A stretch of 64,000 nucleotides of DNA from Halorhabdus utahensis DSM 12940 (GTDB taxonomy: Archaea; Halobacteriota; Halobacteria; Halobacteriales; Haloarculaceae), in contig NC_013158.1 in the NCBI RefSeq assembly GCF_000023945.1, forward strand, positions 620,001-684,000, written 5' to 3'. A model generated the notes under the pieces. That model saw nothing but the letters and a program-made list of their open reading frames with translations, did no database searches and had not been told where the DNA came from. A program made the translations under genes and the position numbers. Positions 32,935-43,137 of the stretch are shown here, piece after piece (positions within the stretch are counted from its first letter, which is position 1; every line of letters starts with the position of its first letter).

Positions 32935-33016
32935 GGTGGGGTGGCAGAGCGGCCCATTGCGCCGGTCTTGAAAACCGGTGGCGCAAGCCTCCTGGGTTCA
33001 AATCCCAGCCCCACCG
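32935..33016 (+). tRNA. tRNA-Ser (anticodon UGA)
   Basis: An 82-nt class II tRNA. The acceptor arms GGTGGGG (32935-32941) and CCCCACC (33009-33015) pair fully and the discriminator is G. The D arm is GCAG/TTGC. The anticodon stem CCGGT/ACCGG closes the loop CTTGAAA, with anticodon TGA. A long variable arm follows, then T arm CTGGG-TTCAAAT-CCCAG. The long variable arm and G73 are the serine identity elements. CCA is not encoded. It reads UCA and, with wobble, other UCN codons. Its 3' end is copied three more times downstream. Confidence 0.95.
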
Positions 33017-33498
33017 CTTCTGCGCGAACGAACGTGAGCGCGGAGCGGTGCAACTGGATTTGAATCACGGCAGACGCGCGCAGCGAAGCGAGCACGTCTG
33101 GCATCGGGTTCAAATCCCAGCCCCACCGTACTTTTGTCGCGAGCAAAACCGCGAGCGATAAATACGTCAACTGGGATTTGAATTAGAGAAGGTGGAGCGC
33201 GAGTGGAGCGAGCGACCACCTTCGCGTGGTTCAAATCCCAGCCCCACCGCTTCTGCGCGAACGAACGTGAGCGCGGAGCGGTGCAACTGGATTTGAAGCC
33301 GACAAGTCGCAGCCCGCGCAACGAAGTGAGCAGGACCGTCTTGGCTCGGTTCAAATCCCAGCCCCACCGTCGGATTCCGTTCGTCATCCGACGAGCGCTG
33401 TCTCGCTTCGCTCGACAGGACACCGTATTTTACTGCGAACTATCCGTGAGCAGCAAATGCGACAAGTTGGGATTTGCATCACGCCAGACGCGCACAGC
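32995..33498 (+). repeat. Array of tRNA-Ser 3'-end copies with hairpin spacers
   Basis: The 20-mer TTCAAATCCCAGCCCCACCG (T arm plus acceptor 3' strand) occurs in the tRNA (32997) and again at 33109, 33230 and 33350, at spacings of 112, 121 and 120 bp. A 70-bp segment is repeated exactly at 32995-33064 and 33228-33297. Spacers contain inverted T-arm copies (TGGATTTGAA) and inner hairpins, such as CAGACG/CGTCTG at 33071-33100 and AAGGTGG/CCACCTT. A degenerate copy lacking the T-arm end lies at 33467-33498. The layout suggests repeated attachment-site remnants or a tRNA-derived mobile repeat. Confidence 0.8.
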
Positions 33499-41195: not shown

Positions 41196-41611
41196 TGGGA
41201 GTCCCCGTTACTTGCTGGCTCGACCGCCACGGTCCCTTCGAGGACGGTCACGATCGCGACCGCGCGATTCGTCGCACGGTACTTCTTCCAGCGGCCGTCC
41301 TTGCGGGATTCGACCAGCCCCGACGCCGCGAGTTCCGAGAGGGCGTGACTCAACCCGCTCTCGCTGACCGCGACCAGCGGCTGGAGTTCACACACGCACA
41401 ACTCCTCGCGGGCTGCCACCAGCGCCCGCGCGAGGGTGTAGCGTGTCTCGTTGGCCAGCGCCGCGAGCACGTCGAGTTCGACCGACAATTGCTCGTCGAT
41501 GGTCCGCTCCAGCGATGCGATTTCTTCCAGACGCGCCTGTACGTCCTCGTTCCGGCACTCCCCCAGTTCGTCTTCCATATACCGACGAAGTCGATCTGTC
41601 GCTTGACTCAT
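41192..41611 (-). CDS. arsR: ArsR-family metalloregulator
   Basis: A 139-residue winged-helix repressor. LDVLAALANETRYTLARALV is the dimer/HTH scaffold, and EELCVCELQPLVAVSESGLS (about residues 70-89) holds the arsenite-binding CVC motif and recognition helix. An N-terminal extension of about 45 residues (MEDELGECRNEDVQARLEEI) is coiled-coil-like. ATG 41611 is chosen over an adjacent GTG. An inverted repeat lies 2 bp upstream, fitting autorepression of arsR-acr3. Confidence 0.93.
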   Translation of the reverse strand: MSQATDRLRRYMEDELGECRNEDVQARLEEIASLERTIDEQLSVELDVLAALANETRYTLARALVAAREELCVCELQPLVAVSESGLSHALSELAASGLVESRKDGRWKKYRATNRAVAIVTVLEGTVAVEPASNGDSQ

Positions 41612-41613
41612 CA

Positions 41614-41626
41614 CTCAATTGTTGAG
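41614..41626 (-). promoter_or_regulatory. Putative ArsR operator
   Basis: CTCAA-TTG-TTGAG is a perfect 5-bp inverted repeat whose inner edge is 2 bp before the arsR ATG. Short TCAA/TTGA dyads near the start are typical ArsR sites. Repressor binding here would cover the start of a leaderless mRNA. Confidence 0.5.
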
Positions 41627-42277
41627 ATAGGATTCAATTAATGTTTTCGTCTTTTTCGCCTAAAGCGTCTCAAAGCTGCGATGTAGCCGCATTTTTAAAC
41701 GGCGAAGATTTATCTCAGTATTATACTTGACTGGAAGCTAAATTAGAATGTGGTACTGAGCGAATCCAGAGACTCTCACCAGGATCAGGGAAGTACGGCA
41801 ACTCGAAAGCAGCGTGAGGGCACGGAGTGCATCGGCGAGTTTTTGCGCGAAGGAATGCCACCGGGAACCGCCTGGTGACGGAATCACTGTGGCCTCTGGG
41901 ACAGGGGCTTGGTGAACCTGTTATCGACAGTGGGTGCGCCCGGAACACTATCGGGCGAGAAACTACTAGTAGGTTCATGGGATTTGTAATCGGGCGTCCG
42001 GCGACCGAGCGGTCCGAAGGACCCGGAAGGTCACCGGGGGACTTCCCTTCGGTCGTCTCCCGAGCCTTTGCTCGCTACGCTCGCAAAGACGCCGGTTCAC
42101 TCGCGCGAACGGATGTGAGCGCGAGGCCGACGAGCGACTAACGCGAGTGAAGCGAGCGGCAGAAGCGAGGAGTGCTTTTGGTCGAGCTTTTGCAAGCGAG
42201 CGACGCAGTCGCTCGCGTAGTAAAAGGTCGTAGTGTACGCCCGGAACACTAACGACCGACCTCATCCCTGGCGGCGT
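41627..42277. other. Non-coding region with flanking direct repeats
   Basis: No credible protein gene. Two 14-bp copies of CGCCCGGAACACTA (41937-41950 and 42238-42251) bound a 300-bp segment; each copy is itself the right arm of a short hairpin. The interior contains GGTCC-gaa-GGACC (42011-42023) and GCGAGCGAC-gca-GTCGCTCGC (42196-42216), again with 3-nt loops. An AT-rich start (about 41640-41735) contains TATA-like sequence (TATTATAC at about 41718) and may drive a transcript rightward. Confidence 0.5.
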
Positions 42278-42489
42278 GCCGGGTTGGTCGGGAAACCCTC
42301 GTGCCGGGCGGGAGATCCCGCCAGGGATCTCCGAATGCGCGACCGGCGGTAGCCGGGAGCGCGGGGGACACCGTTCGGTGTCCCCGAATGCCGAGGCGGT
42401 GTCAACCGCCGAGGCGGGAGGAGTCGGAAGACGCCTCCGAATGCCGAGACGGCGAAAGCCGTCGAGATATCACGTGCCCGGGTTCGCCG
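42278..42489. repeat. 53-bp tandem repeat with compensated hairpins
   Basis: CCGAATGC recurs at 42331, 42384 and 42437, exactly 53 bp apart; a preceding unit from 42278 lacks that box but keeps the layout. Each unit holds one short and one long stem. Short stems are GGGTT/AACCC, CCGGC/GCCGG, GGCGGT/ACCGCC and GACGGC/GCCGTC. Long stems are GGAGATCCC/GGGATCTCC, GGGGACACC/GGTGTCCCC and GGAGGAGTC/GACGCCTCC (one mismatch). Stem sequences differ between units yet stay paired. A 53-bp period cannot maintain a reading frame. This points to structured RNA or a structured DNA repeat. Confidence 0.75.
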
Positions 42490-42582
42490 CGCGGTCATCG
42501 CACCCCTGTGGGTGAACTCGGGCGGGGACTGAGGCACGTACCCGGAGTTATCACCGCACGGAGTAAAGCCCTTCGCGCCGAC

Positions 42583-43137
42583 TCAGACGTCACGGCAATC
42601 GGTACAGAGGAGCTGCCCGTTGAACGAGATGAGGTCGCTCGTCAGCGCGCCGCATCGTTCACAGATGCCCTGGTTGGAGTAGCCGGCGTCAGTTTCGTTC
42701 GTGGCTTCGGTTCGAGCAGGTTCGAGATTGCTGCCGTCGGGCTGTGCATCTCGATTAAGTGCCACGGAGCGGACCAGGTCATCCTTGGTGATGACGCCGG
42801 CGACCTCATCGCGTTCGTCGAGGACGACCAAAAGCGAGACCGAGTTCGAAAGCAACTGGTCGGCCGCCGATTCGACGTGGTCGTCGACGTCGATCCGCGG
42901 AACCATCGACTCCATCGCGTCGCTGACGGTCTCGGCCGTCGGATCCTCGACCTCGAGCATCTGATCGAGGACGTCCTCACTCGAGACTGTTCCGACCGGC
43001 TCGTTGCCCCGTAACACGACCGCACCGTCGGCGCGTTCGTCCCGAAGCAGACGGCCAGCCTCCACCAGGCCGTCGGACTCACTGACGCCGACGTAGTCTC
43101 TCCGCATCACCTCCCGCACGTTGGTCGATCCGTTCAT
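42583..43137 (-). CDS. CBS-pair protein with C-terminal zinc ribbon
   Basis: 184 residues. Two CBS motifs (about residues 5-60, VREVMRRDYVGVSESDGLVE; and 70-125, VSDAMESMVPRIDVDD with DEVAGVITKDDLVRSV) form an adenosyl-ligand-binding Bateman module. The C-terminus has a ribbon, ICERCGALTSDLISFNGQ then LLCTDC. Such fusions are common haloarchaeal regulators. The target is unknown. The zinc end may contact RNA, DNA or a partner. Confidence 0.9.
   Translation of the reverse strand: MNGSTNVREVMRRDYVGVSESDGLVEAGRLLRDERADGAVVLRGNEPVGTVSSEDVLDQMLEVEDPTAETVSDAMESMVPRIDVDDHVESAADQLLSNSVSLLVVLDERDEVAGVITKDDLVRSVALNRDAQPDGSNLEPARTEATNETDAGYSNQGICERCGALTSDLISFNGQLLCTDCRDV

Follow-up and report, generated by a model that had tools for sequence, protein, structure and literature searches.

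The closest described system is the haloarchaeal H/ACA sRNA with the motifs HP1 and HP2 (Hvo1/Hvo2; Grosjean et al. 2008, PMC2584109; PMC4652768), which shares with the locus studied here the order of its two H/ACA hairpins, its three 23S rRNA targets, and a long spacer. The published targets of HP1 and HP2 are U2586 and U1917/U1915; in PMC4652768, the Haloferax motifs are taken as validated by experiment, and alternative folds are given for HP2. Although the long spacer was already reported in 2008 (PMC2584109), the available text of the two papers describes neither a tandem hairpin array within it nor any variation in copy number. The second system is HgcG/Pab40/Pf7 (Rfam RF00064), to which PMC2584109 relates the haloarchaeal motifs, HP2 as the homologue of Pf7 stem III and HP1 as that of stem II. 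Unlike the haloarchaeal gene, the RNA of Thermococcales has adjacent hairpins and a third motif.

We analyzed a 64,000-nucleotide stretch of the Halorhabdus utahensis DSM 12940 genome (the window). We conclude that the locus is very probably a minus-strand gene for a two-hairpin H/ACA guide RNA of haloarchaea, as this is the best explanation of the data, including the anatomy of a hairpin array between the two guide hairpins. This high confidence applies mainly to identity and anatomy; a spacer or insulator role for the array is graded separately below. The parts of the gene are as follows.

42234-42539, minus strand: whole gene of the probable H/ACA guide RNA, in the order HP1, hairpin array, HP2; ends approximate by about 5 nt
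42468-42539, minus strand: HP1, first H/ACA hairpin, with stems P5, P6, and P7; covariation, pocket match, AUA box
42417-42468, minus strand: array unit 1, adjoining HP1, outer stem of the B hairpin imperfect; R3 25.4 bits, fold
42364-42415, minus strand: array unit 2; R3 42.5 bits
42311-42362, minus strand: array unit 3, counted along the RNA (B hairpin, 4-nt linker, A hairpin); R3 54.1 bits
42234-42310, minus strand: HP2, second H/ACA hairpin, with stems P1, P1b, P2, and P3; covariation, pocket match
42234-42236, minus strand: last 3 nt of the HP2 region, near-invariant in the HP2 alignment (TGT on the plus strand)
42563-42577, minus strand: putative TATA/BRE-like promoter element (CGCGAAGG..CTTTAC on the minus strand), about 24 nt upstream of HP1

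Relatives were recovered from 52 of 60 genomes with a 361-bp query and share two strongly conserved blocks (42234-42312 and 42470-42544). Between these blocks lie 2 to 253 nt, which in many species form hairpins of a sequence unlike that of the H. utahensis array; because this variable hairpin stretch stands between two conserved blocks, the array represents an insertion into a larger RNA that is itself conserved. Covariance models were built of the conserved blocks (R1 and R2) and of the array unit (R3). The first-block model, R1, matched 241 of 244 Halobacteria genomes, nearly always in a single copy; its full-length matches in other families of the phylum were weaker. In many distant relatives, the second block also adjoins the first. 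According to R1 and R2, this RNA family extends over most Halobacteria and into several further families of the phylum. Rfam misses the guide RNA in the window, and a covariance model finds the gene in nearly every haloarchaeal genome. The DNA upstream is not conserved among relatives. Convergent neighbors are conserved, among them a gene identified by eye as an FAD-type oxidoreductase (35 loci), and explain nothing about function. Phage sequences gave no match to the locus, and the plasmid search gave one, to a 0.99-Mb Natrinema replicon.

These boundaries alter the preliminary description, which had treated 42278-42489, by implication on the plus strand, as an array belonging to no known RNA family. 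That interval is not self-contained. What had been read as a fourth, boxless unit (about 42278-42310) is part of the different, strongly conserved hairpin HP2, and the other edge of the interval cuts HP1. The array itself is the spacer of the two-motif H/ACA guide RNA already known from haloarchaea, which is related to HgcG/Pab40. The identity was missed because the guide RNA lies on the minus strand and its functional hairpins flank the described interval.

The assignment to the H/ACA class is based on two conserved hairpins, each built as stem, internal-loop pocket, and stem, in which two-sided changes affect 10 of 15 pairs (HP1) and 10 of 20 pairs (HP2). An ANA box lies 3' of both hairpins on the minus strand; in the alignments, 16 columns (HP1) and 19 columns (HP2) separate it from the closing pair of the upper stem; the HP2 value exceeds the usual 14 to 16 nt, a point against the assignment. 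Judged by eye, a possible K-turn or K-loop in the upper stem is marked in both hairpins by a conserved GAUGA on the minus strand (TCATC on the plus strand), facing GA. Several homologues in methanogens, found by R1 and R2, match Rfam HgcG/Pab40 on the minus strand, the best with 70 bits (E of 7e-17); their scores of 70 and 55.9 bits compare with a gathering cut-off of 77 for HgcG (RF00064). That model places the methanogen homologues (L166-L185) below its cut-off, misses the haloarchaeal gene (window 41600-42700), and has no match in the window. We infer that the guide RNA is expressed and assembled into a particle. Among other candidates, RNase P RNA (RF00373) and SRP RNA (RF01857) were rejected, as both genes lie elsewhere in the genome, and so was a whole 840-nt transcript, because conservation is lacking upstream, where a cassette remnant also lies.

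Each guide hairpin would bind a 23S site in its internal-loop pocket and position a uridine there for Cbf5. With guide rules applied to H. utahensis rRNA, the best rRNA site for the HP1 pocket, with a tied score, is 23S U2586 (E. coli numbering; 2621 in Haloarcula), in the predicted context GCTGGGTT-TA-GACC. For HP2, the pocket matches U1917, a uridine of helix 69 (predicted context GGGTAACTA-TG-ACCCTC), with U1915 as an alternative register by eye; this predicted target ranks only fourth among all uridines of the rRNA operon by a simple pairing score. The predicted pocket sites agree with the published targets. Antisense pairing of the plus strand with rRNA was also considered and set aside, being little above that of shuffles.

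Several observations bear on the strand. One HP2 stem position (pair 27-58) would be A.C on the plus strand in 11 sequences and is G.U on the minus strand. Among unique array hairpins, non-Watson-Crick pairs read on the plus strand comprise 35 A.C and 19 G.T, an asymmetry with a P of about 0.02 by a simple sign test, which is a rough estimate. The box 3' of HP1 is present on the minus strand in 47 of 47 loci (ACA in 40, AUA in 7, the latter including H. utahensis at 42468-42470), and that of HP2 (TGT on the plus strand) is near-invariant. Many relatives have CTTTAA-like boxes in the same place as the putative promoter element, about 24 nt upstream on the minus strand. Together, the stem asymmetry, the ANA boxes, and the upstream boxes indicate that the RNA is read from the minus strand. 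The plus-strand reading, which was implied at first and with which we also began, was dropped on account of the A.C/G.U asymmetry, the ACA boxes, and the HgcG matches. A stand-alone plus-strand RNA of unknown family would be in keeping with the Rfam scan of the window, which at E values up to 5 returned only two chance-level matches, but the conserved hairpins on either side, the ANA boxes, the targets, and the homology with HgcG all belong to the minus strand, and we give this reading almost no credence.

Minimum free energy folds show the same hairpins on both strands, better than all shuffles (z of -6.6 and -4.0), and the array alone reaches a z of about -9 to -10 against dinucleotide shuffles. 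As a point against the minus strand, in 38 of 55 inserts the array folds at slightly lower energy when read on the plus strand. GNNA-type loops and tandem G.A mismatches are also frequent on the plus strand of 42311-42468. They characterize structured nucleic acid better than do the U.C loops read on the opposite strand, and they count against the minus strand. GNNA-type loops are stable in DNA. The array could on these grounds act as plus-strand single-stranded DNA, for example in replication or recombination, with its cGNNAg loops, CGAG/CGAG mismatches, and lower plus-strand energy as support. However, the non-Watson-Crick pairs favor the minus strand and the units lie inside a gene read on that strand; we consider such a role very improbable.

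Read on the minus strand, a unit consists of the B hairpin, a 4-nt linker (commonly AUUC), the A hairpin (7 to 9 bp), and about 1 nt. The B hairpin has 3 to 4 bp, a 2x2 internal loop that is mostly UC/UC, 5 to 6 bp, and a loop of about 4 nt. UC stands on each side of the internal loop in 24 of 35 unique units, ATTC is the commonest linker, and TGAC occurs in 9 of 35 B loops. On the plus strand, CCGAATGC recurs at 42331, 42384, and 42437, so the reported spacing of exactly 53 bp is correct, as is the observation of two stems per 53-bp unit whose sequences differ from unit to unit. The covariance model recovers the same three units on the minus strand (42311-42362, 42364-42415, and 42417-42468). 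Homologous arrays occur in other haloarchaea, and in relatives most R3 matches fall within the HP1-HP2 interval on the strand of the RNA; a smaller number of weaker ones lie elsewhere. The matches outside the gene are few and weak, and one inspected in the organism's own genome (1165985) is GC-rich and without an array.

Selection on RNA structure, proposed in the preliminary description, is supported by many two-sided changes among relatives. Across 56 distinct units, pairing is kept, with two-sided changes in 14 of 16 pairs, and 165 compensatory cells stand against 42 +/- 5 in shuffled alignments, a count flattered by the fitting of the unit alignment to the model. Controls with slid partners lose the compensatory signal. 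One unit set was selected by pairing, so that its variety is informative and its percentage paired is not. The compensatory excess over both the shuffled and the slid controls implies that the stems are kept and their letters are not. What is new here is the anatomy of the spacer, with alternating 9-bp and interrupted hairpins, a variable number of units, and a nearly free sequence in which pairing is retained.

The array varies greatly among species, from 0 to about 6 units and from 0 to about 10 hairpins, and a single genus may have from one to about five units. In one relative (L031), two units are nearly identical, which indicates recent duplication. Species with a spacer of only 2 nt (L046 and L047) keep both guide hairpins; therefore, the array is not needed for guiding. 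CsrB/RsmZ-type sponge RNAs have repeated hairpins with a repeated short motif, GGA, in their loops. The array likewise consists of repeated hairpins; here, in contrast, they serve as a dispensable spacer of a guide RNA, with the repeated motif in the linker and the internal loop rather than in GGA loops.

We tentatively propose as the most economical reading, with somewhat less than even confidence, that the array is a self-folding spacer or insulator. It is an internal expansion of the minus-strand guide RNA in which A and B hairpins alternate. Each hairpin would close on itself, leaving the extra RNA unable to pair with the guide pockets, and the run of hairpins would hold the two guide particles apart. 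Tandem duplication would add or remove units, and sequence drift would be tolerated while the stems pair; we infer growth by unit duplication as the mechanism. A point against a passive spacer is the conservation of the UC/UC internal loop and AUUC-like linker, which exceeds what such a role needs. Alternatively, the expansion may be neutral, with closed hairpins harmless, selection removing only variants that misfold the guide, and the array having no function of its own. The range in length (2 to 253 nt) and in hairpin number fits this reading, as does the retention of both guide hairpins beside a 2-nt spacer, whereas internal-loop and linker motifs common to different genera are not predicted by it unless duplication is frequent and recent; we regard it as possible but somewhat unlikely.

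The same motifs raise the prospect of a protein-binding platform, in which the UC/UC loop, loops of the U-N-N-C type, and the AUUC linker would be repeated sites and copy number would tune recruitment. The frequency of the UC/UC loop (24 of 35 unique units), the prevalence of the ATTC linker, and the recurrence of loops such as TGAC (9 of 35 B loops) beside variable stems all point in this direction. Many species lack the array, though, and close relatives have one versus several units; moreover, there is no known partner, and no typical K-turn is recognizable in the units. We therefore think a protein platform unlikely. A broader reading, possible but somewhat unlikely, is that the array is an evolving, copy-number-variable functional domain whose units either serve as sites for a dedicated protein or determine how far apart the two pseudouridylation particles lie. 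If it were true, modification of helix 69 and the peptidyl transferase center would be tuned differently between species. With the anatomy described here, an unexplained long spacer becomes a defined, rapidly evolving RNA architecture, with natural variants from none to about six units in one class, and the need for guide-particle spacing becomes testable by swapping natural spacers.

A side observation concerns toxin-antitoxin-like cassettes that lie at the 3' end of this RNA gene in some haloarchaeal genomes. Two elements of the window are relevant.

42234-42251, plus strand: 18-bp attachment-like core (TGTACGCCCGGAACACTA), the 3' end of the guide RNA gene; duplicated downstream in relatives
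41934-41972, plus strand: partial outer copy of the attachment core, joined to the element end TCGGGCGAGAAACTACTAGTAG; bounds the cassette remnant together with 42234-42251

The last 18 nt of the gene are duplicated downstream in 17 of 127 loci and in none of the reverse-strand control. The duplicated copies are fused to a near-constant end, CGCCCGG-AACACTA-CCGGGCG, whose inverted arms around a 7-nt spacer resemble, by analogy, the core sites of tyrosine recombinases. A search with this element end found sites in 52 of 245 haloarchaeal genomes (about 20%), with as many as six consecutive sites. Most of them adjoin the guide RNA on the 3' side and share one orientation. Segments from site to site are mostly about 0.7 to 1.8 kb and contain toxin-antitoxin-like genes, identified by Pfam as DUF433 with DUF5615, Fic/Doc, and UPF0175 and by eye as HicB-like and PemK-like. 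The cassettes, bounded by that element end and ...CTACTAGTAG, form integron-like arrays (window 41934-42251; L188 in G093, L189 in G074, and L002, L013, L015, L016, L020, L064, L100, and L117). In the window, only a 301-bp remnant without a gene is left (41934-42251, between 41934-41972 and 42234-42251). No recombinase or integrase was identified for the cassettes, and a literature search of partial coverage returned no description of cassette arrays at this RNA gene. Judging from these duplications, the 3' end of the guide RNA is the putative attachment site of integron-like toxin-antitoxin cassette arrays, and a guide RNA gene as cassette anchor would add a non-tRNA gene to the known integration platforms.

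Contig ends fall within or near the gene in the draft assemblies of five loci (L005, L008, L021, L022, and L039), which would be in line with a disturbance of assembly by repeated cassette ends. Elsewhere in the window, at 32935-33369, about three 120-bp tandem copies follow tRNA-Ser(TGA), each with the tRNA 3' end (GGTTCAAATCCC...); since the copies carry this end, tRNA 3' ends may be used in a way similar to that of the guide RNA.
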